Below, piece by piece: positions 14,325-35,247 of a stretch of DNA of 64,000 nucleotides; the stretch's first letter is position 1, and every line of letters begins with the position of its first letter. Under the pieces are notes generated by a model. That model was not told the origin of the DNA, made no database searches, and saw only the letters and a list, made by a program, of their open reading frames with translations. The position numbers and the translations under genes were made by a program. Origin of the DNA: Bacteroidia bacterium. GTDB lineage: Bacteria > Bacteroidota > Bacteroidia > Flavobacteriales > Flavobacteriaceae. The stretch covers positions 62,001 to 126,000 of the forward strand of contig JAUIBP010000009.1 in the NCBI GenBank assembly GCA_030427735.1, given 5' to 3'.

Positions 14325-15908
14325 ATGGCTAAAACAGCTAAAGCAAAAAACAACACCAAAAATCAAAAATCTATAGAGGAAGCCCTTTGGGATTCTGCCA
14401 ATAAATTAAGAGGAACCGTAGAAAGTTCGGAGTACAAACACGTGGTACTCGGACTTATTTTTTTGAAGTTCGCCAGTGATAAATTTGAAGACCGAAGGCA
14501 GGAACTTATAGCAGAAGGTAAAGAAGAATACTTGGAGATGGAGGCCTTTTATGCCATGAAAAACGTGTTTTTCCTGCCCGAAGACAGTCGCTGGTCGTAT
14601 GTTATTGGGCGTGCGAAACAAGACGATATTGCACTAATTGTAGATACGGCTTTACACACCATAGAAAAAAATAACAAGTCTTTAAAAGGCGCTTTGCCAG
14701 ATAACTACTTTTCAAGGTTGAATCTGGATCCAAGTAAGTTAGCTGCTTTATTAGATACCATCAATAATATCGATACGACAAGCGATGAAGAAGAAGATGT
14801 GGTAGGCCGTATTTACGAATACTTTTTAGGGCGTTTTGCCGCTGCCGAAGGAAAGGGTGGTGGTGAATTTTACACCCCAAAATGTATTGTTAACCTGATT
14901 GCTGAAATGTTGGAACCTTACAAAGGGAAAATATACGATCCCGCCTGTGGTTCTGGGGGGATGTTTGTACAAAGTATCCAGTTTGTAAAAAGTCACCAGG
15001 GCAATACCAAGGACATTTCTATATACGGACAGGAATACACTGCCGTAACCTATAAACTGGCCAAGATGAACCTCGCCATTCGTGGTATTTCTGCCAATTT
15101 GGGCGACGTGCCTGCCAATACCTTTTTTAAAGATCAGCATCCAGATTTAAAGGCCGATTACATCATGGCCAATCCACCGTTTAACCAAAGCCAATGGCGC
15201 GAGAAGAACGAGTTGGAAGACGATCCGCGTTGGAAAGGCTATCTGGCGCCACCCACAGGCAATGCCAACTATGGGTGGATTTTGCACATGTTAAGCAAAC
15301 TCTCCGAAACAGGAACTGCTGGCTTTGTATTGGCGAATGGGTCTATGAGTAGTAATACCTCGGGCGAAGGCGATATTAGAAAACAATTGGTAGAAAACGA
15401 TTTGGTGGACTGTATGATTGCCTTACCGGGGCAGTTGTTTTACACCACACAAATTCCCGTGTGTTTATGGTTTATGACCAAAAATAAAAGTGAAGATCCC
15501 GAACATGGTTACAGAAACCGTAAGGGCGAAACCCTGTTTATCGATGCCCGAAATATGGGCACAATGATAGACCGTACCCAAAAGGAACTGACCAAAGACG
15601 ATATTGAAGCCATTGCCAAAACCTACCACGCTTGGCGGTCTGAGTCAGACGGGCAGGCAAAAGAAAAATACGGTGAATATACCGATGAAGCAGGTTACAG
15701 TAAAGCCGCCACTTTAGACGATATACAGAAAAACGATTATGTGTTGACGCCTGGGCGTTATGTTGGTGTTGCCGAAGAAGAGGATGATGGCATCCTGTTT
15801 GAGGATAAAATGACCGACTTAAACACCACCCTAAAACAACAAATGGCAGAAGCTGAAAGCTTAGATGCCGCCATTCGTGAAAATTTAAAGTTGTTGGGGT
15901 ATGAGTAA
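14325..15908 (+). CDS. hsdM: Type I restriction-modification DNA methyltransferase subunit
   Basis: 527 residues. HsdM N-terminal helical domain (about 10-140), then an N6-adenine methyltransferase core with the AdoMet motif DPACGSGG (205-212) and the catalytic NPPF (283-286). It modifies adenine in the bipartite target recognised by HsdS and forms the M2S core of the enzyme. The stop overlaps the hsdS start by 8 bp (ATGAGTAA), so the two are translationally coupled. A short 13-bp palindrome at 15638-15650 falls in a variable C-terminal loop and keeps the frame. Confidence 0.95.
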   Translation: MAKTAKAKNNTKNQKSIEEALWDSANKLRGTVESSEYKHVVLGLIFLKFASDKFEDRRQELIAEGKEEYLEMEAFYAMKNVFFLPEDSRWSYVIGRAKQDDIALIVDTALHTIEKNNKSLKGALPDNYFSRLNLDPSKLAALLDTINNIDTTSDEEEDVVGRIYEYFLGRFAAAEGKGGGEFYTPKCIVNLIAEMLEPYKGKIYDPACGSGGMFVQSIQFVKSHQGNTKDISIYGQEYTAVTYKLAKMNLAIRGISANLGDVPANTFFKDQHPDLKADYIMANPPFNQSQWREKNELEDDPRWKGYLAPPTGNANYGWILHMLSKLSETGTAGFVLANGSMSSNTSGEGDIRKQLVENDLVDCMIALPGQLFYTTQIPVCLWFMTKNKSEDPEHGYRNRKGETLFIDARNMGTMIDRTQKELTKDDIEAIAKTYHAWRSESDGQAKEKYGEYTDEAGYSKAATLDDIQKNDYVLTPGRYVGVAEEEDDGILFEDKMTDLNTTLKQQMAEAESLDAAIRENLKLLGYE

Positions 15909-17367
15909 GGAGTGGAAGGAGGTTGTCTTAAGTGATGTTGCAACTATTGATACCGGGTTTCCTTTTAAAAGCAAATTTTATGAGGAACAAGGAAATCTTC
16001 GAGTTATAAGAGGTAAAAATGTTACCGAAGGGAATTGTAGATGGGGGACAGATGCAAAATTTTGGAATCATTCTTTAGATAAATTAGGAAAGTACAAAGT
16101 CCAATTAAGTGACATAGTGATAGGAATGGATGGCTCTAAAATCGGGAAAAATAGAGCCCTTGTAAAATCGGGTGATTTACCCGCAATCCTAGCTCAACGA
16201 GTTTGTAGAGTGAGAGCAAATTCTAAGAGTGAGCAAAAGTATTTGTGGCAGATTATCAATTCAAATGGATTTGAGAATTATATTGATCTAATAAAAACAG
16301 GTACTTCGATACCTCATATTAGTTTAGGGCAAGTTGGTAAATTCTCTTTCAAAATCCCACCTCTCCCAGAACAAAAAGCAATAGCCCACATTTTAGGGAC
16401 GTTGGATGATAAAATAGAGCTCAACCGCAAAACCAACGCAACCTTGGAAGCCATGGCGCAAGCCCTGTTTAAAAGTTGGTTTGTAGATTTCGATCCTGTG
16501 TTGGACAATGCACTTGCCGCAGGAAATATCATTCCAGAAGCATTGCAAGCCAAAGCGGCGAAAAGAAAGGCTGTTTTAGACCGTCATTCCGCACGCGATG
16601 CGGAATCTGCTAGTATAGAGAACGGAACTCCTTTGCTCTATACCAATCCCAAATTAGCCGCTTTGTTTCCCTCAACTTTTGTGTTTAACGAGATTTTGGA
16701 GAAGTGGATTCCTGAGGGGTGGGAGGTGAAGAAGATTAAGGATGTAGGGAATGTGATAACAGGAAAAACTCCTTCGTCTAAAACTCCAGAACACTTTGGA
16801 GATGTTTATCCGTTTGTAACACCAACTGATTTTAAAAATTATTTTAAAATCGTTATTGATTCTCAAAGAAAATTATCTTCCCTTGGTTTTGAAAATAATA
16901 GGAAAAGGGTGCTTCCTAAAGATTCAGTTTTAGTTACTTGTATTGGTTCTGATATGGGAAAAGTAGTGATGAATAAAGTTGAGTGTATGACAAACCAACA
17001 AATAAACTCAGTTGTACCAAAAGATGACGGTGTTTCAGGGCAATATTTGTATCACTTTTTTAATTGGAATTATGAATTATTGAGGACATTAGCTTTTGGA
17101 GGTTCAACAATGCCAATTTTAAATAAAAGCGAGTTTGAGGGTATTGATATTCTAGTGCCAGATAGATTGGTAGCTTCTGAGGTTAGTAGAAATTTTAGAG
17201 AAAGTGATGAAAAAGTACTTTTCAATTTAAAACAAACCGAAGTATTAACGAAACTTAGAGATAATTTGTTGCCGCAGTTGATAAGTGGAAAGGTGAGGGT
17301 GCCAGGGGAAGCGATAGTGAAGGTAGAGATGCTAGAGGATATGAAGGATAGTATGGATTTTTTATAA
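15901..17367 (+). CDS. hsdS: Type I restriction enzyme specificity subunit
   Basis: 488 residues with two target-recognition domains (about 1-150 and 255-425). They are separated by the conserved helical spacer (PPLPEQKAIAHILGTLDDK ... NATLEAMAQALFKSWF) and closed by the terminal spacer with LLPQLISGKV. It sets the DNA sequence read by the complex. The central linker carries a short palindromic insertion (RHSARDAES) that looks like an in-frame repeat element. Codon use and base composition drop toward AT inside the domains, as usual for exchanged specificity modules. Confidence 0.93.
   Translation: MSKEWKEVVLSDVATIDTGFPFKSKFYEEQGNLRVIRGKNVTEGNCRWGTDAKFWNHSLDKLGKYKVQLSDIVIGMDGSKIGKNRALVKSGDLPAILAQRVCRVRANSKSEQKYLWQIINSNGFENYIDLIKTGTSIPHISLGQVGKFSFKIPPLPEQKAIAHILGTLDDKIELNRKTNATLEAMAQALFKSWFVDFDPVLDNALAAGNIIPEALQAKAAKRKAVLDRHSARDAESASIENGTPLLYTNPKLAALFPSTFVFNEILEKWIPEGWEVKKIKDVGNVITGKTPSSKTPEHFGDVYPFVTPTDFKNYFKIVIDSQRKLSSLGFENNRKRVLPKDSVLVTCIGSDMGKVVMNKVECMTNQQINSVVPKDDGVSGQYLYHFFNWNYELLRTLAFGGSTMPILNKSEFEGIDILVPDRLVASEVSRNFRESDEKVLFNLKQTEVLTKLRDNLLPQLISGKVRVPGEAIVKVEMLEDMKDSMDFL
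16586..16606. repeat. REP-like palindrome inside hsdS
   Basis: ATTCCGCA (16586-16593), CGCGA, TGCGGAAT (16599-16606): a perfect 8-bp-arm inverted repeat encoding part of RHSARDAES in the linker between the central helices and the second recognition domain. GC-rich palindromes of this kind are normally intergenic repeats in Flavobacteriaceae. Here one is translated without breaking the frame. Confidence 0.6.
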
Positions 17368-17383
17368 ACATTAAATATTTATA

Positions 17384-19759
17384 ATGAGTATATTTTCTGA
17401 CTGGTTTAAAGTTGATTTACATATCCATACAGATGATAGTAGAAAGACCAAAACCAACGATTATCAAGGGAACTTTGATATATCTGAATTAAAACAAAAG
17501 TTAATAGAAAATGATGTGAAACTATTTTCTTTAACAGATCATAACATAATCAACGTTGAAGCTTATAAAAATTATTATACGAATTATAAACAAGGTGATC
17601 CGAAGCTTTTAATTGGTTGTGAATTTGATATTGAGGTACCTGAATCAGGTAAAACAATTACATACCATAGTTTGCTGATTTTTGAAAATGAAACTATCGA
17701 GGATGTTGAATTAATTTCTGATAAAGTTGAAAACTTATTTTTATCAAAAGGTTCAGTCATAACTGATAGGAAACTTACAATAGATGATTTGTACGATTTG
17801 TTTAATGATTTTAATTACTTCTTTATACCGCATGCAGGAAATACCAAAAGTATTTTAGACCCTTATAAAGGCTATGACATGAAGCTTTGTCAGCAAATGG
17901 TTTTGCTGATGCCTAGTGCTTTTGAAAAGGTAAAGGAAAGTGTTAGGCAGATTTACAACCAAGGTTTTGATCGTTTGAAGGAATATGATTTCCAAGCAAA
18001 AGACGATATTCCATATATTAATTTTTCTGACAATCATAATTCTCATAAATATCCTTGTACTAATAAAAATGGAGAAGATCATGAGTTTTATTGTATAAAG
18101 GGAAAGCCCTCGTTTGAATCGATAAGGTTTGCGTTTATTGATCCAAAATCAAGAATAAAAAAATATGCTGAAGTTGAGGAGTTAAAAAGATATGCAGAGT
18201 ATGTTAGAACAATAAATTTCAATGGACTTGAATCAGTTAAGGATACTGAAATATTTTTTTCGCCAAATTTGAATGTAATAATTGGAGGAAGGTCTAGTGG
18301 GAAAAGTCTTTTATTTAGTGTTTTAGGAAGTAAAATAAACAGTCCTAAAAACAATAGTAAAAAATATAATTTGGACTTGAGTAAGGTCAAAATTAGTGGT
18401 TCTTTGGATTCTGGAGAAAAATCTATTATAAGTTTTAATAAAGGAGATTTGGTTTATATTAATCAAGGAGACATTGTAAATTATTTTGAAAATAATTCGC
18501 TCAAGGATCTTATTCAGGAATCAGGAAAAGAGGATTCTTATAAGGAGGCTTTAAGTTTTTTTGGTCAAAAAAAACAAGAATTTGAGTGCGTTATTGATGA
18601 GTTGATGGACATATATGAGCAATTTAAAAACAGTGTGATTGCAAATTTTACCATTCATGATAAAGATATAGATTCCATTCTCGATTCAAGTTATTATTTT
18701 AAACGAATAGAAGATATTACTGATAAAACGGAACAGTTTAGTGAGGCTAACGAGATACTTTTGGGGTTGGATGATTACATTGAAAAGTTTAAAAAAAATG
18801 ATAATTGGGTATTTTCTTCAGAAGAAAATAAAACAATAGAGGCTTTTCAAACACTTGTTAGTGAAAAATCTGAATTATTTAATTTAGATAAGGTTGAGCA
18901 TTTGCGAAAGGTAAGCTTCATTGAAGAAGTTAAAGAGTTAATTAATAACCAAAATGCAACTTTAGATACTAAGGGAAGAGAAAAGGATTCTGCAAATAGC
19001 AGGTTAAGATCTTTAAAGGGAAGTTTAAGAGAAATATTGAATTTGGCTTTAAAATTTGCAAATAAATGCAAGGAGTTAGAAAGCTACGGTTATAACTTTA
19101 AAAGGGAAATAATAATTAATGATGATGTTGCTGTTGTACTAGAGATCCAAGAGCAGGAGGATTCAATAAAAGATCTCATTCTTGCAGGTCTAAGCCCTGT
19201 GTCTAATGCTGAAAGCTTATATGATAATTTACTTAAAGTTGTAAATGATGACATTAAAATTAAAAATTACCCTGATAATACCGTCAATAGTTTAAAAAAG
19301 AAGGTGAACTCACAGGTAAAAAAGCTGAAAGAAGCTTTTGATAAGCCAATTGAATTTTTGAAATATTCAGAGAGTAGTACTTCTAAAAATAATTCTCCTG
19401 GGTACAATTCGGAAAAGTATTTAGAGACAATCTTGAAAAATGGAAAATCAAAAATAATTTTGATTGATCAGCCAGAGGATAATTTAGGTAACAAATTCAT
19501 TTCGGAAAATCTAATAGATATATTAAGGGAGCTGAAGTTTGAAAAACAAATTTTTCTGGTAACTCATAATCCGTCTATAGTAGTTTATGGAGATGCGGAA
19601 AATGTTATTATGGCAACAAACAATAGTAATCAGATAGAATATAAACAGTTTGTCTTGGAGGAAAAAGAGCATCAAGTTGAAATTTGTAATACTTTGGATG
19701 GTGGTAGATACATATTTGAGCAAAGGGCACGGAAATATAATATTAAAAAACTTATTTAA
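17384..19759 (+). CDS. PHP-domain/SMC-like AAA ATPase (TrlF-like), putative defence effector
   Basis: 791 residues. The N-terminal PHP phosphoesterase domain (about 8-260) keeps its metal motifs: DLHIHTDDS (His13, His15), LTDHN, IPHAG and SDNHNSH. An ABC/SMC-type ATPase follows: Walker A GGRSSGKS (301-308), a long coiled-coil region (about 380-650), Walker B ILIDQPEDN (Asp695) and the THNP switch. PHP plus ATPase proteins of this build are annotated as TrlF-like and occur in defence islands. A nucleic-acid or nucleotide phosphodiesterase gated by ATP is the likely activity, by inference. It starts 16 bp after hsdS and is followed after 2 bp by a small acidic gene, so the pair looks like one unit inserted in the RM operon. 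Confidence 0.85.
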   Translation: MSIFSDWFKVDLHIHTDDSRKTKTNDYQGNFDISELKQKLIENDVKLFSLTDHNIINVEAYKNYYTNYKQGDPKLLIGCEFDIEVPESGKTITYHSLLIFENETIEDVELISDKVENLFLSKGSVITDRKLTIDDLYDLFNDFNYFFIPHAGNTKSILDPYKGYDMKLCQQMVLLMPSAFEKVKESVRQIYNQGFDRLKEYDFQAKDDIPYINFSDNHNSHKYPCTNKNGEDHEFYCIKGKPSFESIRFAFIDPKSRIKKYAEVEELKRYAEYVRTINFNGLESVKDTEIFFSPNLNVIIGGRSSGKSLLFSVLGSKINSPKNNSKKYNLDLSKVKISGSLDSGEKSIISFNKGDLVYINQGDIVNYFENNSLKDLIQESGKEDSYKEALSFFGQKKQEFECVIDELMDIYEQFKNSVIANFTIHDKDIDSILDSSYYFKRIEDITDKTEQFSEANEILLGLDDYIEKFKKNDNWVFSSEENKTIEAFQTLVSEKSELFNLDKVEHLRKVSFIEEVKELINNQNATLDTKGREKDSANSRLRSLKGSLREILNLALKFANKCKELESYGYNFKREIIINDDVAVVLEIQEQEDSIKDLILAGLSPVSNAESLYDNLLKVVNDDIKIKNYPDNTVNSLKKKVNSQVKKLKEAFDKPIEFLKYSESSTSKNNSPGYNSEKYLETILKNGKSKIILIDQPEDNLGNKFISENLIDILRELKFEKQIFLVTHNPSIVVYGDAENVIMATNNSNQIEYKQFVLEEKEHQVEICNTLDGGRYIFEQRARKYNIKKLI

Positions 19760-19761
19760 AA

Positions 19762-20079
19762 ATGGATAGTATAATAGTTGAGAATTTTATTGATGAAAAT
19801 GAAATTAGTGTAAGTTTTGATTTAATATCTGGGGAGTTGGCTTTTCCTCCAATAACTTTAAGTATAGAAGGGGATATAGATTTAAATCCATTGGTTTTGG
19901 AATTAACCAAACTAGTGAAATTTAATAAACCAATTGATTATAAATATAATGATGATGCGGGTTTAATAGATTCGAATCTAAAAATAAAATTAATAAAAGA
20001 AACTTTGGATGATTTATTTGTAGCATTTAATGAAAATTTAGAAGTAGCTAGTGAGGGTGATGAATTAGAGATTGAATAG
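19762..20079 (+). CDS. Small acidic protein, partner of the PHP-ATPase
   Basis: 105 residues, strongly acidic (ends EGDELEIE), with alternating beta-like segments (VSFDLISGELAFPPITL) and a C-terminal helix. No family was recognised. It begins 2 bp after the ATPase stop with no room for its own promoter, so the two are cotranscribed. By analogy with other two-gene defence modules it could be a regulator, inhibitor or sensor subunit, but nothing in the sequence shows which. Confidence 0.7.
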   Translation: MDSIIVENFIDENEISVSFDLISGELAFPPITLSIEGDIDLNPLVLELTKLVKFNKPIDYKYNDDAGLIDSNLKIKLIKETLDDLFVAFNENLEVASEGDELEIE

Positions 20080-21751: not shown

Positions 21752-22001
21752 AAAAATTAGAAGAGGCATTTAACATTACAATATGAAAAAATTTACTGAA
21801 GCCCAGTTAGAACACGTATTTGCTGAATTATTAGAAGATCAAGGCTTTCCGCATCTTTTAGGAGAAGCGATAAACAGAAGTCCTGAAGATACAGATAGTA
21901 ACCGAAATAGCACCTTAGAGTGGTTATCTTCAAATTGTCAAGTCATTATTAAAGGAGCTTCAGGAAAGCTTCAGTTTAACTTCAGAAAAGCTTTCATGTA
22001 A
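21752..22001 (+). pseudogene. Truncated duplicate of the hsdR 5' end
   Basis: From ATG 21783 the first 36 codons match hsdR at 23755 with 7 base differences, only one of them changing a residue (Ala/Val). After EDT the frame runs into unrelated sequence and stops at 22001. The ~31 bp before the ATG also match the end of abiEii before hsdR (one base shorter). It is therefore a relic of an abiEii-hsdR junction from a second allele, not a gene in its own right. A 72-residue product is possible but unlikely to function. Confidence 0.8.
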
Positions 22002-22161: not shown

Positions 22162-22770
22162 ATGCCTAATTTTAAAATAGAACATAAAATTTCGAAAGCG
22201 ACCAGAGGGCGTTTGTTTTTTTCCGAAGATTTTACAGGCTATGCGTCTCAGGATGCTATTAGGCAAAGTTTGTCAAGGTTGGAAAAAGACGGTGTTTTGA
22301 CGCGATTGGCTCAGGGTATTTACTTAAAACCTCAGATAGATGATTTATTAGGGGTGATCTATCCTAAAATAGAAGATGTCGCTAAGCAAATAGCTAAAAG
22401 AGATAAAGCTCGCATTGCGCCAACAGGCGTTTACGCACTATATACTTTGGGATTAACCACACAAATTCCTTTAAAGATTACCTACTTAACCGATGGGTCG
22501 CAACGCGATATAAAAATTGGTAAAAGTGTTATTAAGTTTAAAAAAACCGTTCCTAGAACCTTTGCAATAAAAGATGAATTGTTACAGCTAATTGTGCAGG
22601 CCTGTAAAGAAATAGGGCAAAAAAATATTACCGAAACATTTATTAAACAATTACAACCCAAGGTGCAACAACTTCATAAAAATATTGTGGCAAAAGAACT
22701 GAAATTTGCTCCCGTTTGGATTCAGAAACTAATTCAGGAACTTTATAATGATTCAAACTATGTGGATTAG
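22162..22770 (+). CDS. abiEi: AbiEi-type antitoxin / DUF6088 transcriptional regulator
   Basis: 202 residues. An N-terminal winged helix (about 20-65, DAIRQSLSRLEKDGVLTRLAQ then GIYLKP) is followed by a C-terminal domain typical of the DUF6088/AbiEi group. These proteins repress the operon and neutralise the AbiEii nucleotidyltransferase. It overlaps abiEii by 23 bp, showing tight coupling, and carries its own operator just upstream. Confidence 0.85.
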   Translation: MPNFKIEHKISKATRGRLFFSEDFTGYASQDAIRQSLSRLEKDGVLTRLAQGIYLKPQIDDLLGVIYPKIEDVAKQIAKRDKARIAPTGVYALYTLGLTTQIPLKITYLTDGSQRDIKIGKSVIKFKKTVPRTFAIKDELLQLIVQACKEIGQKNITETFIKQLQPKVQQLHKNIVAKELKFAPVWIQKLIQELYNDSNYVD

Positions 22771-23758
22771 TCTACCCATTAATCAGCAGGAGCAGGTCTT
22801 ACAACAAGTGAGTACTGCTACAGGGTATCCTACCTATGCCATTGAAAAGGATTGGTGGGTTTGTATGGTATTACGTGCCGTGTTTCAAACAAGATATGCC
22901 GATTCCATTATTTTTAAAGGGGGGACTTCACTTAGCAAAGGCTATCAGCTTATAGATCGTTTTTCAGAAGATATAGATCTTATTATAGATAGACACTTGC
23001 TTGGCTTTGATGTGTTAGATTCTAAAACAAAAATTAAAAAACTAAGAAAAGCTTCCGGAGGGTTTATTGTGAATGCGTTTCGAGAAGAGTTGATGTCTCA
23101 ATTAGACGCTCTAGGTATTAATAAAGAGCTTTACGAAATTCACTATAACGAACATGTAGATGATACTAGCGACCCGAATTCTCTGGAAATTTATTATCGT
23201 TCGGTAACAACCCATACTAACGACTATATACAACCGCGGGTATTATTGGAAATGGGAGCCCGTTCTTTAACAGAGCCTAGTGAAAAGCGAGCTATTGTTT
23301 CATTTATAGACGAACAATTTAAAAGTTTGCCTTTTGCTCAGCAAGCCTTCGATGTGCAAGTAGTGTTACCAGCAAGAACTTACATTGAAAAAATATTGTT
23401 ATTACATGAAGAATTTTCTAAGCCTGTCGAAAAAATAAGAACAGAGCGATTAACACGCCATCTTTACGATTTAGAAAAATTAATGGATACGTCGCATGGA
23501 AAATTAGCAGTGACCAATGATGAATTATTTAAGGCTATTGTGGCACATCGTCAATCCGTTACACCGTTAAGGGGACTAGATTATTCTAATCATGTTAAAG
23601 GAAAATTAAGTATTTTACCTCCTGAGTCTATTTTGAAATCCTGGGAACAAGATTATAAAACGATGCAGGATAATATGATTGTAGGAGAAAGCTTAACTTG
23701 GACAGTATTACTAGAACGTATCAAAAAGATAGAAGATGCATTTAACCAGACAATATGA
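22748..23758 (+). CDS. abiEii: AbiEii-type nucleotidyltransferase toxin
   Basis: 336 residues of the AbiEii/AbiGii family. The nucleotidyltransferase motif is intact: FKGGTSLSKGY (from Lys57) followed by RFSEDIDLII with the metal-binding aspartates. Family members are type IV toxins that modify RNA with nucleotides and cause phage abortive infection. It overlaps abiEi by 23 bp and hsdR by 4 bp (ATGA), so restriction and TA genes are in one operon. Confidence 0.88.
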   Translation: MIQTMWISLPINQQEQVLQQVSTATGYPTYAIEKDWWVCMVLRAVFQTRYADSIIFKGGTSLSKGYQLIDRFSEDIDLIIDRHLLGFDVLDSKTKIKKLRKASGGFIVNAFREELMSQLDALGINKELYEIHYNEHVDDTSDPNSLEIYYRSVTTHTNDYIQPRVLLEMGARSLTEPSEKRAIVSFIDEQFKSLPFAQQAFDVQVVLPARTYIEKILLLHEEFSKPVEKIRTERLTRHLYDLEKLMDTSHGKLAVTNDELFKAIVAHRQSVTPLRGLDYSNHVKGKLSILPPESILKSWEQDYKTMQDNMIVGESLTWTVLLERIKKIEDAFNQTI

Positions 23759-23862
23759 AAAAATTTACCGAAGCCCAGTTAGAACATGTATTTGCTGAAT
23801 TATTAGAGGACCAAGGCTTTCCGCATCTTTTAGGAGAAGTGATAAACAGAAGTCCAGAAGAC
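23723..23862 (+). repeat. Right copy of the abiEii-end/hsdR-start repeat
   Basis: Matches 21752-21890 over about 140 bp. Similarity ends sharply at codon 36 of hsdR on the right. The coding differences are nearly all synonymous, which implies the two copies diverged as working genes before meeting here. Confidence 0.8.
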
Positions 23863-26800
23863 GTACTTATCAAAGAGGATCTTAAAGCCTATCTTGAAAG
23901 CCGTTATGAAAAGGAGGGCATCACTTCAGGGGAAGTGGATCAGATTATTCGACAGTTAGAAGCTTATCCTGCCTCCGATTTGTACGGGAGTAATAAAGCG
24001 ATCATGAGGTTGGTTTCGGATGGTTTTATTTTAAAACGGGAAGATCGGTCTAAAAAGGATCTTTATATTCAGTTACTAGATTATAACGGACTTCAAAACG
24101 CTTTAGAAGTCGATAATCATGTTTTGCAGAACCAGGCCGCAGAGCCAAATAATAACTATCCTAAAACAGATGTTAATTGCTATAAATTTGTTACACAACA
24201 AGAAATTATAGGCTACGAAAAGCGCATTCCAGATGGTATTTTATACATCAACGGATTACCGCTAGTCGTGTTCGAGTTTAAATCGACCATTCGAGAAGAA
24301 GCTACATTATTTCAAGCATACGAGCAGTTAACTGTGCGTTACCAAAGAGATATTCCAGAACTATTTAAATACAATGCTTTTTGTGTGTTGAGCGATGGAG
24401 TAAATTCTAAAGCAGGATCATTTTTCGCAGGTTACGATTTTTATTACGCCTGGCGAAAAATTTCGGGAGACGATATCAAGGAAGTCGATGGTATACAGGC
24501 CATGTATACGATGGTGAAAGGGATGTTTGATAAAAATAGATTACGCGATATTATTCGAAACTTTATTTATTTTCCTGATACGTCTAAAAAAGATGAAAAA
24601 ATTGTCTGTCGTTATCCGCAGTATTATGCTGCCACAAAATTGTATACCAATGTTGTAAAGCAACAAAAGCCGTTGGGAGACGGTAAAGGAGGGACTTATT
24701 TTGGCGCTACAGGTTGTGGTAAAAGTTATACCATGTTGTTTTTAACGCGTTTATTAATGCGAAGCGCTCATTTTGCCAGTCCTACCATTGTGTTGATTAC
24801 GGACAGAACGGATTTGGACGATCAATTATCTAGCCAGTTTCAGAATGCTAAAGGTTATATAGGCGATAATAATGTGATTAGTGTTGAAAGCAGAGCAGAG
24901 CTTCGGGAAAAACTACAAGGACGACAAAGTGGTGGTGTGTTTTTAACCACCATACACAAGTTTACTGAAGATACCGAATTACTAACCGATAGAACCAATG
25001 TGGTGTGTATTTCGGATGAAGCCCACCGCAGCCAGATCAATCTGGAACAAAAGGTTAAAATTACCGAAAAGGGTGTAAAGAAAACCTATGGATTTGCAAA
25101 ATACCTTCATGATTCCTTACCAAATGCCACTTTTGTAGGCTTTACAGGAACGCCAGTAGACGCGACTTTAGATGTGTTCGGTGATATTGTAGATTCCTAT
25201 ACTATGACGGAGTCTGTAAACGATGAAATTACTGTACGTTTGGTGTATGAAGGTCGTGCAGCAAAAGTGTTGCTAAATAGTACTAAGTTACAGGAAATTG
25301 AAGAGTACTACAGTCAATGTGAAGCCGATGGTGCTAATGAATATCAGATAGAGGAAAGTAAGAAGGCCACCACGAATATGAATGTCATTCTTGGCGATCC
25401 TGACAGAATTAAAGCTGTAGCCGAAGATTTTGTGAAGCATTATGAAAAACGTTTAGAAGAAGGGGCGACCGTAAAGGGGAAAGCCATGTTTGTGTGTAGT
25501 AACAGACAAATCGCTTTTGAGTTTTATAAAAATGTGTTGGAACTCCGTCCAGCATGGGGTGAAGTGCGGGCTTGTGAAGCTGGTGCAGAACTGACCGAAA
25601 AGGAACAAAAAGAAATTTTACCTATAGAACGTGTGAAAATGATCATGACCAGAGGTAAGGATGATGCTAAGGAGTTATGGGATTTATTAGGAACTAAAGA
25701 GTATCGTAAAGAACTGGACAGACAGTTTAAAAACAGTAAATCTAATTTTAAAATTGCTATTGTGGTGGATATGTGGTTGACTGGTTTCGACGTACCGTTT
25801 TTAGATACCATTTATATCGATAAGCCTATCCAGCGTCATAACCTGATTCAGACCATTTCGAGAGTGAACAGAAAATTTAAAGGCAAGAAGAAGGGGTTAG
25901 TAGTAGATTATATTGGTATTAAAAAGCAAATGAATCTAGCCTTGGCGCAATACAGCAAGGCCGATAGTCAGAATATTGAAGATGTAGAAACATCTGTGGT
26001 GGTGGTGAAAGATCATCTGGATTTATTGGAAAAGCTGTTTCATAAGTTTGATGCGTCTGATTATTTTAACGGATCGTCGGTAGCGCAATTAAACACTTTA
26101 AATCTGGCTTCGGAGTTTGTTTTGCAAACTGAGCAAACAGAAAAACGGTTTATGCAAATGACCAAGCGTTTAAAAGCGGCCTATGATGTTTGTGTAGGTA
26201 GTGAAAAATTAACGCAGAAACATCGCGATTATATCCATTTTTATTTAGCCGTGCGTTCTATTGTGTTTAAACTGACGAAAGGAACGGCGCCAGATATAGC
26301 ACAAATGAATGCCAGAGTTCGGGAAATGATGAAGGAAGCTTTGGCTAGTGATGGGGTAGAAGAGATTTTTAAGTTAGGGGATGAAAGCGAATCTCAAATC
26401 GATATTTTTGATGCAGATTATATCGATCGTATCAATAAAATTAAACTACCAAATACCAAAATCCAGATCCTGAAAAATCTATTGGCTAAAGTGATTGAAG
26501 AGTTTAAAAAAGTGAATAAATCCAGAGGAACAGACTTTTCAAAGAAAATGCAGGCCTTAGTTGAAAAATATAACGAACGTAAAGAACAGGATGTGTTTAA
26601 CGCCGAAGAATTTGATATCATTGCCACAGAACTAACAGAACTTATCATTGCAATAAAACAGGAATTTAGTGCAGGTGATGATTTAGGAATTAGTTTCGAA
26701 GAAAAGTCGTTTTACGATATCCTTAAAACCTTAGCTCATAAATACGATTTTGAATACCCTGATGATAAATTGGTATACCTGTCTAAAGAAGTCAAGAAAA

Positions 26801-26979
26801 TAGTAGACGACAAATCCAAATACACCGACTGGAGCAAACGCGATGATATAAAAGCTGAATTAAAAGTAGATTTAATAATTTTACTTGGCGAAAATGATTA
26901 CCCACCTGTAGACCGAGACGAGGTGTACAAGGAAATTTTTGAGCAGGCCGAGAACTTTAAGAAGTATCAGAGGGTATGA
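23755..26979 (+). CDS. hsdR: Type I restriction enzyme endonuclease/translocase subunit
   Basis: 1074 residues. N-terminal PD-(D/E)xK nuclease (PDGILYINGLPLVVFEFKS, about 160-180), then an SF2 helicase with Walker A GATGCGKS (317-324), DEAHR, TGTP and the later QTISRVNR motif, and a C-terminal assembly domain. It translocates and cuts unmethylated DNA together with HsdM and HsdS. It lies 6.4 kb from hsdS instead of adjacent, with at least five genes between, and starts within the abiEii stop. Confidence 0.95.
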   Translation: MKKFTEAQLEHVFAELLEDQGFPHLLGEVINRSPEDVLIKEDLKAYLESRYEKEGITSGEVDQIIRQLEAYPASDLYGSNKAIMRLVSDGFILKREDRSKKDLYIQLLDYNGLQNALEVDNHVLQNQAAEPNNNYPKTDVNCYKFVTQQEIIGYEKRIPDGILYINGLPLVVFEFKSTIREEATLFQAYEQLTVRYQRDIPELFKYNAFCVLSDGVNSKAGSFFAGYDFYYAWRKISGDDIKEVDGIQAMYTMVKGMFDKNRLRDIIRNFIYFPDTSKKDEKIVCRYPQYYAATKLYTNVVKQQKPLGDGKGGTYFGATGCGKSYTMLFLTRLLMRSAHFASPTIVLITDRTDLDDQLSSQFQNAKGYIGDNNVISVESRAELREKLQGRQSGGVFLTTIHKFTEDTELLTDRTNVVCISDEAHRSQINLEQKVKITEKGVKKTYGFAKYLHDSLPNATFVGFTGTPVDATLDVFGDIVDSYTMTESVNDEITVRLVYEGRAAKVLLNSTKLQEIEEYYSQCEADGANEYQIEESKKATTNMNVILGDPDRIKAVAEDFVKHYEKRLEEGATVKGKAMFVCSNRQIAFEFYKNVLELRPAWGEVRACEAGAELTEKEQKEILPIERVKMIMTRGKDDAKELWDLLGTKEYRKELDRQFKNSKSNFKIAIVVDMWLTGFDVPFLDTIYIDKPIQRHNLIQTISRVNRKFKGKKKGLVVDYIGIKKQMNLALAQYSKADSQNIEDVETSVVVVKDHLDLLEKLFHKFDASDYFNGSSVAQLNTLNLASEFVLQTEQTEKRFMQMTKRLKAAYDVCVGSEKLTQKHRDYIHFYLAVRSIVFKLTKGTAPDIAQMNARVREMMKEALASDGVEEIFKLGDESESQIDIFDADYIDRINKIKLPNTKIQILKNLLAKVIEEFKKVNKSRGTDFSKKMQALVEKYNERKEQDVFNAEEFDIIATELTELIIAIKQEFSAGDDLGISFEEKSFYDILKTLAHKYDFEYPDDKLVYLSKEVKKIVDDKSKYTDWSKRDDIKAELKVDLIILLGENDYPPVDRDEVYKEIFEQAENFKKYQRV

Positions 26980-29190: not shown

Positions 29191-29225
29191 TTGTTTTGTT
29201 TAATTTTCTTGAAATATTTAAGACA

Positions 29226-30239
29226 ATGGCTCAAAATAAAAATGCATTAATCCGATACAAAACGATAGATAAGTGCTTACAGAATCACTTTAGGGCATGG
29301 ATGCTAGACGATTTAATTGAAGCTTGTTCTCAGGCTTTGTATGAGTATGAAGGGCGCAGTGTAAATGTTAGTAAGCGTACGGTTCAATTGGATATTCAAC
29401 TCATGAGAAGTGATAAATTGGGATATAATGCGCCCATTGAAGTCTATGAAAAAAAGTATTATCGCTATTCCGATCCAAATTTTTCTATTACAAATATTCC
29501 AATCTCAGAAACAGATATGAAGGTACTTTCTGAAACCATAGCCATGCTAAAGCAGTTTCAGGATTTTTCGTTATTTGGGGAATTGAAAGGACTATTCAAT
29601 AAGTTGGAGGATAAAATTTATACCGAAAAAACGAATAAGTTTTCAATCATTCACTTAGATAAAAATGAAGATTTAAAAGGGTTGGAGTTTTTAGATGAAA
29701 TTTACCAGGCCGTCATAAAGGAAGTGGTATTACTGATAAAATATAAGCCATTTAAATCGACGCACCCCAGTATCATAGTTTTTCATCCTTATTTTCTAAA
29801 GGAATTTAATAACAGATGGTTTGTTGTCGGTAAACCGCATGCTGAAGATCGATTACTTACCTTAGCATTAGACCGTGTTGTGTCCATCGATTATAATTTC
29901 AATCTTAAATATCAACCGACTGATTTAAACCCTGATACTTATTATAAAAACACTATAGGAGTAACGGTGTTGGATCATCACAACCTAAAGCACGTACGAT
30001 TAAAAATTGACAGAAAAAATGCGCCCTATGTTTTAACCAAGCCCTTACATAATTCTCAAACCGTTTTAAGTACGAATCCAGATGGCAGTGTAGTTATAGA
30101 AATAGTTGTGCATTTAAATTTTGAGTTGGAACGTCTTATTCTAGGATTTGGAGATGCTATTGAAGTACTGTCTCCAAAACAGTTGAAACTTAAAATAATT
30201 AAGAAATTAAATGCGGCTTTAAACCATTACGGTATATAA
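29226..30239 (+). CDS. WYL-domain transcriptional regulator
   Basis: About 337 residues from ATG 29226 (MAQNKNALIRYKTID). A TTG-initiated form 30 bp longer is possible but less likely. N-terminal winged HTH (about 5-80), then a WYL domain (about 150-240, LLIKYKPFKSTHPSIIVFHP then YFLKEFNNRWFVVG) and a C-terminal WCX-like extension. WYL regulators sense nucleic-acid or nucleotide ligands and often control DNA/RNA repair and defence. Divergent pairing with rtcB suggests control of RNA repair. Confidence 0.88.
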   Translation: MAQNKNALIRYKTIDKCLQNHFRAWMLDDLIEACSQALYEYEGRSVNVSKRTVQLDIQLMRSDKLGYNAPIEVYEKKYYRYSDPNFSITNIPISETDMKVLSETIAMLKQFQDFSLFGELKGLFNKLEDKIYTEKTNKFSIIHLDKNEDLKGLEFLDEIYQAVIKEVVLLIKYKPFKSTHPSIIVFHPYFLKEFNNRWFVVGKPHAEDRLLTLALDRVVSIDYNFNLKYQPTDLNPDTYYKNTIGVTVLDHHNLKHVRLKIDRKNAPYVLTKPLHNSQTVLSTNPDGSVVIEIVVHLNFELERLILGFGDAIEVLSPKQLKLKIIKKLNAALNHYGI

Positions 30240-30480
30240 TTAATTGGTTGATTTAATATGAAATAGCGTTTGTGTTCGAAGAAATTATCAAGTTTAGTGA
30301 ATAGGGAAATACATATTACATATACAATATTTAACAAAGTTAAACCCGCAACATATTTCTCGGAAAAGGGACGGCATAAAGCCGTTCCTGCGTCACTATT
30401 TATTCCGTTTCCTTTCCACTCCAAAATGTTGTCTTACGTTTGGTGATAGCTCCATATTGTTTAATCTAAATATTTAAATT

Positions 30481-30885
30481 ATGGAAGCAAAAACAAAACC
30501 AAGCAACAATGGTATTCAGGAGAAAACCACAGTTAAAAAGGATGTTCAAAAGCAACTCACCAATGCAGCCATTGGTAAGGGTGAAGCAAAACCTGCCACT
30601 CCAGTGGCCAAGACAGAAATCAATTTGGATGACCGCATTCAAAAGTTTGAAAAGTTAAAGGGCTTGGCGACCCAACGGGAGCGTCTTACCGAAACCCTGA
30701 ACGACCTGACCAAATTTAATTACAATCAGGATGGCTCGGCCTCTTTTCAAATTCGTGATTCGCACCATTTGGAATTCAAGACCACGAATTCAAACCTAAT
30801 CAAATTGGTGACGACACACTTGCAATTGACCTTGGAACAGCGTAAGGCTGAAATTGAATCCGCAATTGTAGCTTTCGAGCTTTAA
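30481..30885 (+). CDS. Conserved hypothetical protein of the conjugative element
   Basis: 134 residues. The first ~45 are Lys/Thr/Pro-rich and look disordered. The rest is helical (LDDRIQKFEKLKGLATQRER ... LTLEQRKAEIESAIVAFEL). It is the first gene of the mobilisation block. No function was recognised. A terminator follows directly. Confidence 0.7.
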   Translation: MEAKTKPSNNGIQEKTTVKKDVQKQLTNAAIGKGEAKPATPVAKTEINLDDRIQKFEKLKGLATQRERLTETLNDLTKFNYNQDGSASFQIRDSHHLEFKTTNSNLIKLVTTHLQLTLEQRKAEIESAIVAFEL

Positions 30886-30909
30886 GTGAGCAACCGTTCA
30901 CAATGTTTC

Positions 30910-30941
30910 AAGCCTGCCCAGCACTTTGGGTGGGCTTTTTT
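30910..30941 (+). terminator. Rho-independent terminator
   Basis: AAGCC (30910-30914) and CCCA (30917-30920) pair with TGGG (30927-30930) and GGCTT (30933-30937) around a 6-nt loop, followed by TTTTT. Confidence 0.75.
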
Positions 30942-30972
30942 ACTTACATGTTAAATTAAAAAACAAATTCCA

Positions 30973-31812
30973 ATGTACTTAAATCAATTACAACACGATG
31001 ACCTTTACGTGCCAACCGCTGTGGTACCATTAAAGGATTTGACCCAAATGCCAACGCGTAGAGGTCTTGAACAGGCTATAATCTCCAATGGTAGGATTGT
31101 AAATGTAGTCTCAAAATCATATGGCCATATTCCAAATGACCTGTTTTTTAAACAGGCGGAACAATTGTTACACGATGCGGAATTATCTTTTGAGACGCGC
31201 AGTATCAATAGGGAAGACCGTTCCTTTGTGATGGATATCATCATCAAGGACGCCAATCAGTTTACCGTAAAGCATGAAGCAGATGCCATACTACCTATGT
31301 TGCGTTTTAAAAACTCGTATGACGGAAGTGAAAGGACTTCGGGACACTTTGGATTTTATAGAAAAATCTGTAACAATGGACTACATGTTGCACAATCGGA
31401 AATCGACTTTGCTATTAAGCACAATAAGAACAATACGACCTTAATACTTCCGAAATTAAATCACCTGTTCCAAAAGTTCTTGGATAATGAGTTTTATAGC
31501 ATAGTCGATAAGTTTAACCGCATGAAATCCGTTAAGATTATGGATACCGAAGCTTTTGTAAAGGCTGTATTGGAAGAGCATAAATTGTTTCGCTATGAAT
31601 GTAGTGATACCAATGATAATCCATCCAAGCGTTCGCGGATGGTTATCGATATTATAGACCATGAGTCACTACTGCTTCAAGAATCTCCAAACCTCTGGTT
31701 AGGTTATAATGCGTTTAATGAGGTGCTTCATAATACCTTAAAACGTAGTTTTTCCCAACAGGAACGTCTGGATAGAAGACTCTTTGATACGGTATTGAAC
31801 ATGGCAACATAG
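30973..31812 (+). CDS. DUF932/DUF945-type phage/plasmid-like protein
   Basis: 279 residues. The family signature is visible as SGHFGFYRKICNNGLHVAQ (about 120-138) and the surrounding alpha/beta pattern. DUF932 proteins are common on plasmids, phages and conjugative transposons, where they lie near ssb and replication or mobilisation genes. Their role is unknown. It opens the ssb-proximal part of the element and is followed by about 800 bp without large genes. Confidence 0.75.
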   Translation: MYLNQLQHDDLYVPTAVVPLKDLTQMPTRRGLEQAIISNGRIVNVVSKSYGHIPNDLFFKQAEQLLHDAELSFETRSINREDRSFVMDIIIKDANQFTVKHEADAILPMLRFKNSYDGSERTSGHFGFYRKICNNGLHVAQSEIDFAIKHNKNNTTLILPKLNHLFQKFLDNEFYSIVDKFNRMKSVKIMDTEAFVKAVLEEHKLFRYECSDTNDNPSKRSRMVIDIIDHESLLLQESPNLWLGYNAFNEVLHNTLKRSFSQQERLDRRLFDTVLNMAT

Positions 31813-32007
31813 TCATAACCAAGGTTGCTCCAGTACCTTAAACTGGAGATTTACGGGATAATAGGCAAAGGCCAACAAGACCAAGACCATGGGATGCCGT
31901 ATGCACTGTATCCCCCGGTATAGGACGTGTTGGCTAAGGTCTTGAACCTCTCTTATTTCGTTTTAAAGTTTGTAATCATGAAATGAGGTCTTACATAGCA
32001 TTAGCCT
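31813..32007 (+). other. Structured non-coding stretch after the DUF932 gene
   Basis: Contains a perfect 7-bp hairpin CTCCAGT/ACTGGAG (31828-31834, 31842-31848, 7-nt loop) without a T tract, and widely spaced GCCAACA/TGTTGGC arms (31871-31877, 31928-31934). No protein was supported. It could be a structured RNA or part of a transfer-related region. Confidence 0.35.
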
Positions 32008-32133
32008 TCAAATAATTAAGAATGTAAAGAGACGTTCGCTTTTTAAGCGGTAGCGGTACCCCGCTGCGTTTGGGTTCATGAAGCACATGACCACGACATT
32101 CCGCTCGGCTGCATGTCGGATCAAGAGCTTCAT
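32008..32133 (-). CDS. Possible 41-residue protein
   Basis: ATG at 32131-32133 to TGA at 32008-32010. The product starts MKLLIRHAAERNVVV and is basic with a hydrophobic end. It overlaps the nested inverted repeat at 32075-32136, so the open frame may be a by-product of RNA or DNA structure. No family was recognised. Confidence 0.3.
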   Translation of the reverse strand: MKLLIRHAAERNVVVMCFMNPNAAGYRYRLKSERLFTFLII

Positions 32134-32136
32134 GAA
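32075..32136. repeat. Nested inverted repeats
   Basis: Outer arms TTCATGAAGC (32075-32084) and GCTTCATGAA (32127-32136) are perfect over 10 bp. Inner arms CGACAT (32094-32099) and ATGTCG (32113-32118) are perfect over 6 bp. Transcribed RNA would form a two-level stem. Confidence 0.6.
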
Positions 32137-32209
32137 AAGGTCTTGAACAGCCCTATGGCGCTACACTCCTTCATACCGTTACCTTGCCACATGGGGCAAG
32201 ACACAGTAT

Positions 32210-32365
32210 TCAGGAGCCGCCCCAAAGGGCAGTTCGCCTAGTATTTTCGGTTTTGAACATGTTTGTTCTGTTGCCATCAATGCTGTATTTCAATACGTGC
32301 ATTTCGTCTACTTCCAGAGCCACCCTGTACTCTTTTTTGGTCAGCAAAATAACAACATTTTTCAT
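32210..32365 (-). CDS. Small conserved-looking protein (51 residues) of the element
   Basis: ATG at 32363-32365 to TGA at 32210-32212. Product starts MKNVVILLTKKEYRVALEVD. The alternating beta-like pattern looks like a real small protein, and it is favoured over the overlapping + strand frame. It is divergent from the 58-residue gene at 32417. Confidence 0.4.
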   Translation of the reverse strand: MKNVVILLTKKEYRVALEVDEMHVLKYSIDGNRTNMFKTENTRRTALWGGS

Positions 32366-32416
32366 GGTACGACTGCATAACCGGTCGCGTACCGCTCCCT
32401 TTTATAAGTCTTAACC

Positions 32417-32593
32417 ATGAAAAATATTGTGAAATATCCAGCAACAAAAAAAGGTGACAGTGACGGCTCTATGGGAAGTAAATCAAAAGCAACTATTATG
32501 AAATCATACAGCATCAATAAAACGGCAACAGAACAACAGTTAAAAACAAAACAAAAGGAAAACGTTCTGGATATAATAAGTAAATCAATTTAA
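32417..32593 (+). CDS. Small basic protein (58 residues) upstream of ssb
   Basis: ATG 32417 to TAA 32591-32593. Lys/Ser/Thr-rich, beginning MKNIVKYPATKKGDSDGS, probably disordered. It lies 24 bp before ssb on the same strand and may be cotranscribed. No family was recognised. Confidence 0.4.
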   Translation: MKNIVKYPATKKGDSDGSMGSKSKATIMKSYSINKTATEQQLKTKQKENVLDIISKSI

Positions 32594-32617
32594 TATTAAT
32601 TTTTAAATCTTTTCATT

Positions 32618-32965
32618 ATGGGAACTATTAAAAACCATGTACAGTTAATTGGAAACATTGGACAGGATCCAATTATAACCACGCTAGAGAGCGGCAAGAA
32701 AGTAGCACGATTTTCTTTGGCTACCAATGAGCATTACAAAAATGCTAAGGGCGAAAAACAGACCGAAACCAGTTGGCACACCATTGTGGCCTGGGGGCGT
32801 ACTGCGGATATTATTGAGAAATATACATCCAAAGGTAAAGAGGTTGGAGTTGTAGGGAAATTGAAATCCCGTAGCTATGAAACCAAGGACGGACAAACAC
32901 AGTATGTGATAGAGGTCGTAGTAGATGATATTCTACTGATGGGAGCTAAGCCCGATAAGGACTAA
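32618..32965 (+). CDS. ssb: Single-stranded DNA-binding protein
   Basis: 115 residues, one OB fold: NHVQLIGNIGQDP at the start, WHTIVAWGRTADIIEKYTSK and the KSRSYETKDGQTQYVIEVV segment. It lacks the long acidic C-terminal tail of the chromosomal SSB and ends MGAKPDKD, as in many element-borne SSBs. It probably protects transferred single-stranded DNA. A terminator follows. Confidence 0.92.
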   Translation: MGTIKNHVQLIGNIGQDPIITTLESGKKVARFSLATNEHYKNAKGEKQTETSWHTIVAWGRTADIIEKYTSKGKEVGVVGKLKSRSYETKDGQTQYVIEVVVDDILLMGAKPDKD

Positions 32966-32979
32966 TCCCCAAGTATTTC

Positions 32980-33012
32980 AAGAGGGAGCAAACCCTAAAC
33001 TCCCTCTTTATT
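32980..33012 (+). terminator. Terminator after ssb
   Basis: AAGAGGGAG (32980-32988) and CTCCCTCTT (33000-33008), perfect 9-bp stem, 11-nt loop, followed by TATTAATT. Confidence 0.75.
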
Positions 33013-33035
33013 AATTCACCTTAATTCTTTTAACA

Positions 33036-33416
33036 ATGAATTCTAATAGTAACACTTTGGAAACCGCCCTACAACAGTTTATTGGGTCGTCGGTATTTTA
33101 TCGTATCCCTTTAATTAATCTTAAAATTACTGAGGGTATTGCCTATTTGGCTGAACATGGCCACTGTCATTGGTTTGTTAACGACGCCTTAATTATGTGT
33201 AAAGGGCTTCAACACAAATGCCCCTTTATAGTAATAGATTTTAAACGCCTGACCCAACAGGAACAACAGGGTCGAGGTTATGAGGCTCAAGTAAACTATA
33301 GTGATGGCAATGCAAATGTATTGGAAACGCAACCCTATAAAATCACGGACTTTCCCATGGACTCGTTGCGTATGTATTTTGTAAATGAAATGCTGATGTT
33401 ACCTCGGGAATATTAA
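33036..33416 (+). CDS. Conserved element protein, possibly DUF6876-like
   Basis: 126 residues, compact alpha/beta: ALQQFIGSSVFYRIPLINLK, GIAYLAEHGHCHWFVNDALI and IVIDFKR. The pattern recalls the DUF6876 group of plasmid/conjugative-element proteins (F-x-G-[ST]-x-x-Y-R ... YLAE-x-x-x-x-[YW]), but the match is from memory. It stands between ssb and the mobilisation genes with its own terminator. Confidence 0.65.
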   Translation: MNSNSNTLETALQQFIGSSVFYRIPLINLKITEGIAYLAEHGHCHWFVNDALIMCKGLQHKCPFIVIDFKRLTQQEQQGRGYEAQVNYSDGNANVLETQPYKITDFPMDSLRMYFVNEMLMLPREY

Positions 33417-33439
33417 ACCGGGGAGCGATTAATAGCGAT

Positions 33440-33476
33440 AAAGGAGTTTTTTAAACCACTAAAAAGCTCCTTTTAT
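33440..33476 (+). terminator. Terminator before the mobilisation region
   Basis: AAAGGAGTTTTTTA (33440-33453) pairs with TAAAAAGCTCCTTT (33460-33473), one T/G pair, 6-nt loop, followed by T-rich sequence. Confidence 0.8.
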
Positions 33477-33563
33477 TTTGCGCAATTTGCAAAGAAATAT
33501 GCCTTTGGATCGCTAATATTTTAAAGCGTTTGTTTCGTACTCTTAAAATGTTAAGGAATAGTG

Positions 33564-33672
33564 ATTCCGAAGCAGACCTGTACTATCTTAAGATACGGCT
33601 GGTCGGAATTTTGTCCCGCTCGCGCGGGACGAAATGGAGGAGCAAGAGGGTAACCCGCAACGGCGTGGTTAC
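33564..33672. other. Candidate origin of transfer (oriT)
   Basis: Three stacked dyads just upstream of the mobilisation genes. ATTCCGA (33564-33570) and TCGGAAT (33603-33609) enclose the 12-bp palindrome TATCTTAAGATA (33584-33595). GTCCCGC/GCGGGAC (33613-33619, 33624-33630) is a 4-nt-loop hairpin. GTAACC/GGTTAC (33650-33655, 33667-33672) follows. This density of inverted repeats before bfmA, relaxase and coupling protein is what an oriT looks like. The nick site is not identified. Confidence 0.5.
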
Positions 33673-33753
33673 AGTGATTTTAAATAATGCAACACACTGA
33701 TTGTTAGTAAGTTACGATTGTGTGTGGAGTTTTGAACTGAAATCAGCTCCTTG

Positions 33754-33810
33754 TTTTTTACTAAAAAACGTTTCCAGCCCAATAAAATCAAAGGATTTTT
33801 TACTAAAAAA
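33754..33810 (+). repeat. Two copies of a 15-bp dyad before the BfmA-like gene
   Basis: TTTTTTACTAAAAAA occurs at 33754-33768 and 33796-33810, 42 bp apart (about four helical turns), the second copy touching the start codon region at 33812. Each is symmetric apart from its centre base. They look like paired operator or relaxosome binding sites. Confidence 0.6.
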
Positions 33811-33811
33811 G

Positions 33812-34204
33812 ATGGATAAAGGTTTTGAAAAAGAGGGATTTGTAACCCTGAAAATAAAACAGTCTGTAGCCAAGCAATTTAAGTCTTACAGCAAACGTTT
33901 AGGGAAATCTCACTCGATCTCCTTATTGTTGATGCTGGAATTCTTCGACCGAAGCGGCCTGTCCCCAGAAGAACAGCTTGGGCCAAATATGCAAACTTTA
34001 GAACTTGCGATTAAACGCAGGCTTAATGCCATGATTGCCATTATCAAGGATATTGAGAAGCATCAGACCAAACCCACAGCGGCCATGTTACAAGCGCTTT
34101 TTGAATCGGCAGCAACAAACCCTCAATCCCCAATGCGGGTAGAACGTAAAGAAAATACGTCAGCACCTAAATTTCAAGAACGCATAATTAACGAAAGGGA
34201 ATAG
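33812..34204 (+). CDS. BfmA/BtgA-family mobilisation accessory protein
   Basis: 130 residues from ATG 33812 (MDKGFEKEGFVTLKIKQSV). An upstream TTG frame exists but the ATG fits the family. The family binds oriT and helps the relaxase; the N-terminal segment VTLKIKQSVAKQFKSYSKRL is ribbon-helix-helix-like. It is first in the operon bfmA-relaxase-coupling protein and may autoregulate through the two dyads upstream. Confidence 0.75.
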   Translation: MDKGFEKEGFVTLKIKQSVAKQFKSYSKRLGKSHSISLLLMLEFFDRSGLSPEEQLGPNMQTLELAIKRRLNAMIAIIKDIEKHQTKPTAAMLQALFESAATNPQSPMRVERKENTSAPKFQERIINERE

Positions 34205-34208
34205 CATC

Positions 34209-35237: not shown

Positions 35238-35247
35238 ATTAACAATC

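Follow-up and report, generated by a model that had tools for sequence, protein, structure and literature searches.

Organization of the locus

The stretch of DNA analysed here (64,000 nucleotides at its full length, hereafter the window) carries on its forward strand a module of two adjacent genes. The first (17384..19759; ATG start, TAA stop) encodes a protein of 791 residues in which a PHP phosphoesterase domain is fused to an SMC/Rad50-like ABC ATPase, as indicated by Pfam, by the structural model and by Foldseek. The second (19762..20079; ATG start, TAG stop) begins 2 bp after the stop of the first and encodes a protein of 105 residues in which acidic residues outnumber basic ones by 18 and whose relatives lie directly 3' of ATPases at other loci. 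The ORF coordinates and the motif alignment agree with the preliminary description of this DNA, which had proposed an intact PHP/SMC-like ATPase followed after 2 bp by a small acidic ORF.

The module is surrounded by genes of a type I restriction-modification (RM) system on the same strand. Upstream of it lie hsdM (14325..15908; Pfam N6_Mtase and HsdM_N), for the modification subunit, and hsdS (15901..17367), for the specificity subunit, the latter being an ORF with BLAST relatives behind hsdM at other loci and ending 16 bp before the module; downstream lies hsdR (23755..26979; Pfam T1RH-like_C, SWI2_SNF2 and HSDR_N), for the restriction subunit. The placement of the pair between hsdS and hsdR was thus correctly described but is not the whole picture, given that the DNA between the module and hsdR also contains a gene for an AlbA_2 protein and a DUF6088/AbiEii pair. 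A 138-nt direct repeat (21752-21889 and 23724-23861, 91% identity) corresponds to the 5' end of hsdR in two copies, with the DUF6088/AbiEii pair (22162-23758) between them, and this layout is suggestive of an inserted cassette. Further downstream (29196-36831) lies what looks like a conjugative element adjoining the RM operon, with DUF932, DUF5712, a type IV coupling protein and, at 32618-32965, a short SSB that lacks the C-terminal tip.

The PHP-ATPase

The PHP domain of the window ATPase is recognized by Pfam at 29.8 bits (cut-off 26.4), and its metal-ligand positions D11, H13, H15, D52, H53, E80, H95, H150, D216 and H218 (17414..18037 from the D11/H13/H15 motif to D216/H218) are intact. The same holds for the ATPase head, with G301, G306 and K307 in the Walker A motif GGRSSGKS (residues 301-308, 18284..18307), S671 and G673 in the signature, D695, E698 and D699 in the Walker B region IILIDQPED (residues 691-699, 19454..19480), and H728. 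All these residues, which we take to have the catalytic roles usually given to such positions, are invariant in 42 aligned rows (window included) with the exception of H218, replaced by Tyr in 18/18 group-B rows, and S671, replaced by Thr in 3/3 group-C rows (groups A, B and C are named by the kind of partner that accompanies the ATPase). Since group B lacks the last PHP histidine, the PHP chemistry may differ between groups.

The AlphaFold model of the ATPase (mean pLDDT 88.2, pTM 0.72), made, like that of the partner, of the single protein, retrieves SMC, Rad50, RecN and AriA heads with Foldseek, among them that of the AriA-Ocr complex (8v45), together with a PHP phosphoesterase, and a profile search against PDB sequences ranks Rad50 and AriA first. 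Plasmid records yield 1048 matches to the ATPase, all of them below 60% identity and none covering 80% of the protein (the best 40 are mostly annotated as TrlF), and no match to the partner.

Conservation of the pair

Relatives of the ATPase were collected by scanning genome contigs (80 loci kept from 523 relatives; L034 and L054 extend beyond the ends of their contigs) and viral contigs (53 loci). Judged from these gene neighbourhoods, the pairing of the PHP-ATPase with a small ORF is real and conserved: a small 3' ORF follows each of the 46 full-length members of one branch (21 in group A, including the window, 22 in group B and 3 in group C), which come from many phyla and are about 760-830 residues long. 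These ORFs are mostly acidic and are placed from -26 to +14 nt from the ATPase stop in all 46 cases, one of them (L022) being shortened to 65 residues. By comparison, 27 TrlF-like relatives, mostly longer, show no small ORF, and no partner match of the A or B type was found at any of their loci (at L050 the DNA behind the gene extends for only 163 bp, and L057 is shorter, with 691 residues).

In a tree of 73 full-length ATPases, obtained with a quick search, groups A, B and C each occupy one side of a branch, and the three together stand opposite the 27 partner-less proteins with an SH-aLRT value of 99 and 3 label changes, the fewest possible. The tree omits short, duplicate or surplus sequences (L035, L051, L055, L056, L060, L066, L070, L077, L081, L083, L086, L089, L092, L093 and L096) and 46 of the 53 viral loci. 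Among the readable loci left outside it, the seven genome loci nearest to A or B all hold a partner match, the eight genome loci and 45 viral ones closest to the partner-less group hold none, and one viral locus (L147) is nearest to group C.

Within the order of the window's genome, the ATPase was found at E <= 1e-20 in 5/395 genomes, the window's included, and all five have a small ORF directly behind it. As the group labels had been set after inspection, a fresh sample of 398 genomes, drawn from the phylum to which G668 belongs (Bacillota by the label of its locus L028), was used as a check, in which seven matches at E <= 1e-40 were found, namely G668 and six new ones. The small ORF is present at the end of the ATPase in 4/4 new members and absent in 2/2 relatives of TrlF length (869 and 930 residues; all frames behind them were read). 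Of these four partners, one matches the A profile (G1153, 2.5e-27) and another the C profile (G1332, 2.6e-11, its ATPase being cut by the contig end), a third has 104 residues and no profile match better than 0.0045 (G1282), and the last has a GTG start and is B-like by eye, without an E-value (G1119). The distribution is patchy, with the ATPase in 4/394 other genomes of the order and 4/397 other genomes of the second phylum.

Searches were also started from the small protein. Among 298 genomes of the family, the search found the window's own copy, one extra genome (G624) with a partner 47% identical, in which the open frame of the ATPase covers only the C-terminal part and represents a shortened copy, and two hits of weak significance, one at E 0.0039 that has an internal stop and the other at E 0.0047 inside a 427-residue frame. 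A profile of 20 partners, run against 395 genomes of the phylum with at most 12 candidates scored per genome, returned only the window's own copy and one hit at E 4.8e-4, which was considered as a lone partner and taken as chance, lying as it does inside an 872-residue ORF that, in our reading, resembles an M16-type peptidase. Profile searches found no A- or B-type partner away from an ATPase in the loci examined, no natural fusion of ATPase and partner among the profile hits and, in the 53 viral-contig relatives, no partner with an A or B profile. Homologues standing mostly without the ATPase, which would have spoken against the preliminary description, were therefore not what was found, and no lone copy was confirmed, within the limited sensitivity of such searches for short proteins.

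The A and B profiles match each other weakly (E 1.3e-4, probability 54%, in one comparison), profile comparison gives no sequence link between the group-C partners and A or B, and the partners of group C, G1282 and L147 are linked more by position and size than by sequence. In L147, on a viral contig, an in-frame stop interrupts the ATPase frame near its C-terminal end, and behind the end of the homologous stretch lies a small acidic frame that resembles that of G1282 by position only. Damaged copies also occur, with ATPase fragments beside a partner or a partner fragment (L055 and L012).

The small acidic partner

The possibility that the small gene is not coding is contradicted by conservation, as homologous in-frame ORFs occupy the same place in many genomes and, among Flavobacteriaceae, dN of the partner is below dS (dS is infinite in 4/10 pairs and high in the others). 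In the 6/10 pairs with finite dS, dN/dS is 0.21-0.54 for the partner and 0.09-0.15 for the ATPase. Compared with the ATPase, the partner has a dN 1.6 to 2.1 times as high. To judge from these comparisons, the partner gene is coding and constrained and evolves faster than the ATPase gene. Only M1 and N90 are invariant in 20 group-A partners, which, together with the faster dN, leads us to read the partner as regulatory rather than catalytic.

Its AlphaFold model (pLDDT 81.8, pTM 0.71) has the topology b-b-b-a-b-a with a disordered acidic end. The protein is accordingly predicted to consist of a small alpha/beta domain and an acidic, disordered tail comprising residues 93-105 (20038..20076; pLDDT <50 from residue 99). 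The earlier claim that the protein belongs to no known family holds in the libraries queried: the window partner has no meaningful family match in Pfam, NCBIfam, PADLOC or PHROGs, and neither do other partners, six of which were compared with Pfam (best match GvpK, E 0.0075, below the cut-off), four with PADLOC and two with PHROGs. Foldseek gave no match to the partner fold at E <= 0.001 in the PDB or BFVD; weak leads to a ribosomal protein and to RNase H/RuvC-like folds were set aside as insignificant. In the literature searched, which leaves most subscription papers outside its coverage, no description of the small partner appears among the matches listed.

An SSB-like tip in part of the partners

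The tail of 9/21 group-A partners ends, after an acidic linker, in [DN][IL]PF, a tip that resembles DDDIPF, given as the C-terminal tip of bacterial SSB in PMC5872125. An [ILV]PF tip is present in 1/23 group-B partners (the tail count omits the shortened partners of L022 and L035). Among control ORFs of the same loci, an [ILV]PF end occurs in 3/1310 distinct ORFs of at least 150 residues and in 9/4558 of at least 60 residues, many of which are not real genes; one of these nine is a further group-B partner (L066), and three look like what we presume to be phage ssDNA-binding proteins. The comparison of 9/21 with 3/1310 gives a Fisher p of 1.8e-15, to be read with four of the nine partners being close relatives and six lineages counted. 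When the comparison is limited to ORFs whose last twelve residues include five or more acidic ones, PF is the end of 1/30 controls versus 8/14 group-A partners.

An SSB ending in [ILV]PF was found in 17/18 genomes that hold the pair (30/31 places examined), the exception being G624. In the 10 genomes with a tipped partner, the aliphatic residue is common to the partner and the SSB in nine (L-L in 7 and I-I in 2, against I-V in 1), an agreement that tracks phylum as well as function. Within the Marinilabilia/Prolixibacter group the tail varies (27-55% identity) and its last three letters are fixed. Two further proteins that look related, encoded near the pair (L029:4759-5226 and L030:1516-1851), also have an SSB-like DLPF end.

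The window partner itself ends in DELEIE and has no such tip. Its relatives L017-L019 also lack PF (two of them end in F), and since the Myroides (L020) and Algibacter (L021) partners keep the PF tip, the most economical explanation, in our view, is that the window's lineage lost it. The tip is missing in 12/21 group-A partners, the window's included, and in 22/23 of group B, and thus, as far as the sequences tell, it is not required by all partners. Pfam reports no SSB match in the window partner or six others, and the model, as far as its topology shows, is not an OB fold. The SSB-like tip suggests that some versions may be keyed to SSB-covered DNA or to SSB-binding proteins.

Association with type I RM genes

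The pair has type I RM genes beside it in 8/20 group-A loci, namely the window and seven of the other 19 (L020, L022, L024, L025, L027, L028 and L031), and in four of them (L020, L024, L027 and L028) the order hsdM-hsdS-pair-hsdR is found without other genes. This count omits L030 and includes some short flanks; in the remaining 12/20 loci no type I RM gene was matched in the flanking DNA, several of their flanks being short. Among the 132 flanking proteins scanned (of 165 flanking ORFs), one type I methylase model has 12 matches, and the listed specificity models have 7 each. In group B, HsdM/HsdR matches occur in only 2/16 loci. Because of the loci without a match in both groups, type I RM is probably best seen as a frequent home of the pair and not as a requirement. 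The adjacent RM genes support the putative defence role of the module only indirectly.

Proposed mechanism and alternatives

The reading that we prefer, with a probability of roughly 60%, is that the module is a two-component system related to the anti-phage nuclease Ppl, in which the first gene provides an NTP-controlled nuclease or phosphoesterase and the second a dedicated regulatory or docking subunit. Both genes would form one machine. The first product, taken as a relative of Ppl because of its same domains, and kin also to TrlF, would be an ATP/NTP-controlled, metal-dependent nuclease or phosphoesterase, with the PHP site on an SMC/Rad50-type head bearing a short coiled coil, and would attack phage nucleic acid; the second would be a non-enzymatic subunit that binds the ATPase and restrains or directs it. 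In the tipped versions, the tail would occupy or advertise an SSB docking site, so that SSB-covered ssDNA, or an SSB-binding phage protein, might switch the nuclease on, and the untipped partner of the window would act through its folded domain or acidic tail alone.

A bolder form of this proposal, which we put forward only tentatively, is that the partner is a dedicated SSB-tail mimic, a defence subunit of mobile nature that borrows the C-terminal peptide of the SSB of its host lineage, either placing or releasing the PHP-ATPase exonuclease at SSB-covered phage DNA or baiting SSB-binding phage proteins, the tip having been lost in lineages such as that of the window. If true, these partners would define a first family of regulators of PHP-SMC nucleases that are keyed by an SSB tail. 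The tip offers a concrete and cheap hypothesis for what PHP-ATPase nucleases sense.

A toxin-antitoxin system, with the PHP-ATPase as a nuclease that inhibits growth and the small acidic partner as its antitoxin, whose loss as an unstable protein during phage infection frees the toxin, would account for a partner that is small, acidic and faster-evolving, that neighbours the ATPase gene with an overlap or a gap of a few bases, and that was not confirmed alone in the searches made. We nevertheless hold it to be rather doubtful: the order is toxin first and partner second, which is less usual in type II toxin-antitoxin systems, and a pure antitoxin leaves the recurrent SSB-like tip unexplained. 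Moreover, single-gene relatives exist, such as Ppl (PMC12904381) and the partner-less TrlF-like proteins.

An accessory role in DNA repair rather than in defence, as an SSB-linked nuclease at host replication forks that is carried by mobile elements, is suggested by the resemblance of the tip to the host's own SSB tip and by the SMC/Rad50-like head, but the patchy distribution, the location beside RM and AbiE-like genes and the kinship with Ppl make it unlikely. Lastly, it is very improbable that the partner is a brake of the Ocr kind (a DNA mimic or inhibitor adapted to the surrounding type I RM enzyme) that the ATPase senses or relieves. The acidity of the partner, its place beside type I RM genes in 8/20 group-A loci and the AriA-Ocr match of the ATPase head would fit this reading, but the pair persists in the other 12 loci, without such a match in the flanking DNA, and in group B, where only 2/16 loci gave one, and Ocr is absent from the best 50 matches of either partner fold search.

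A whole branch of Ppl kin, represented in many phyla, thus has a second gene unknown to the libraries queried, for which reason screens that proceed one gene at a time would miss partner-bearing PHP-ATPases or clone only half of them.

Comparison with known systems

The nearest named family of the window ATPase is TrlF (NF045780, E 5.7e-75), with which it shares the order of a PHP domain and an SMC-like ATPase. The label "TrlF-like" given in the preliminary description is broadly apt but imprecise: the protein reaches 253.7 bits and stays under the NCBI cut-off of 350, as do all the partner-bearing proteins scanned (the six others score 175-273 bits), whereas two partner-less relatives pass it with 530 and 599 bits. 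On the basis of these scores, the partner-bearing ATPases are best described as a sister group that has a second gene of its own and not as TrlF in the NCBI sense. The 27 partner-less TrlF kin also differ in their surroundings, for they lack the small gene and some have an AlbA_2 gene behind them instead. In nine of the partner-less TrlF-like loci (L049, L053, L065, L075, L076, L079, L082, L089 and L141), the ATPase is followed, with an overlap of 4-19 nt, by an ORF of about 385 residues with similar starts, and the two of these that were scanned contain SLFN_AlbA_2 and HATPase_c_4, so that a two-gene module of TrlF and AlbA_2 is possible.

With Ppl (NF042955), the window ATPase shares the fusion of PHP and SMC-like ATPase (profile E 1.1e-21; best PADLOC hit, 1.3e-17), but at 76.6 bits it is far from the cut-off of 1000 and falls about 90 residues short of the 882-position model. 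The review PMC12904381 describes Ppl as a single-gene anti-phage system, an NTP-inhibited 3'-5' ssDNA exonuclease that requires nucleotide depletion and free 3' ends; unlike it, ATPases of the window's type have a constant second gene (46/46 full-length branch members). Spaf_1101 (NF045781) is matched over nearly its full length (E 7.8e-29), with 100.7 bits versus a cut-off of 475, and the PADLOC candidate PDC-M49A only partially (E 6.1e-13). Five small partners scanned against PADLOC gave no meaningful model match.

The ATPase head is alike, in fold and in profile, to that of AriA from PARIS. AriA, however, has no PHP domain, and its partner AriB is a TOPRIM protein; no AriB was found here, where the partner is without a family match and has a b-b-b-a-b-a model. 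SSB, finally, has a C-terminal tip like that of 9/21 group-A partners, the window's not among them, and an OB fold that is not evident in the partner model. Detection of phage SSB is listed, in PMC12904381, for Nhi, Retron Eco8, Hachiman and Septu.
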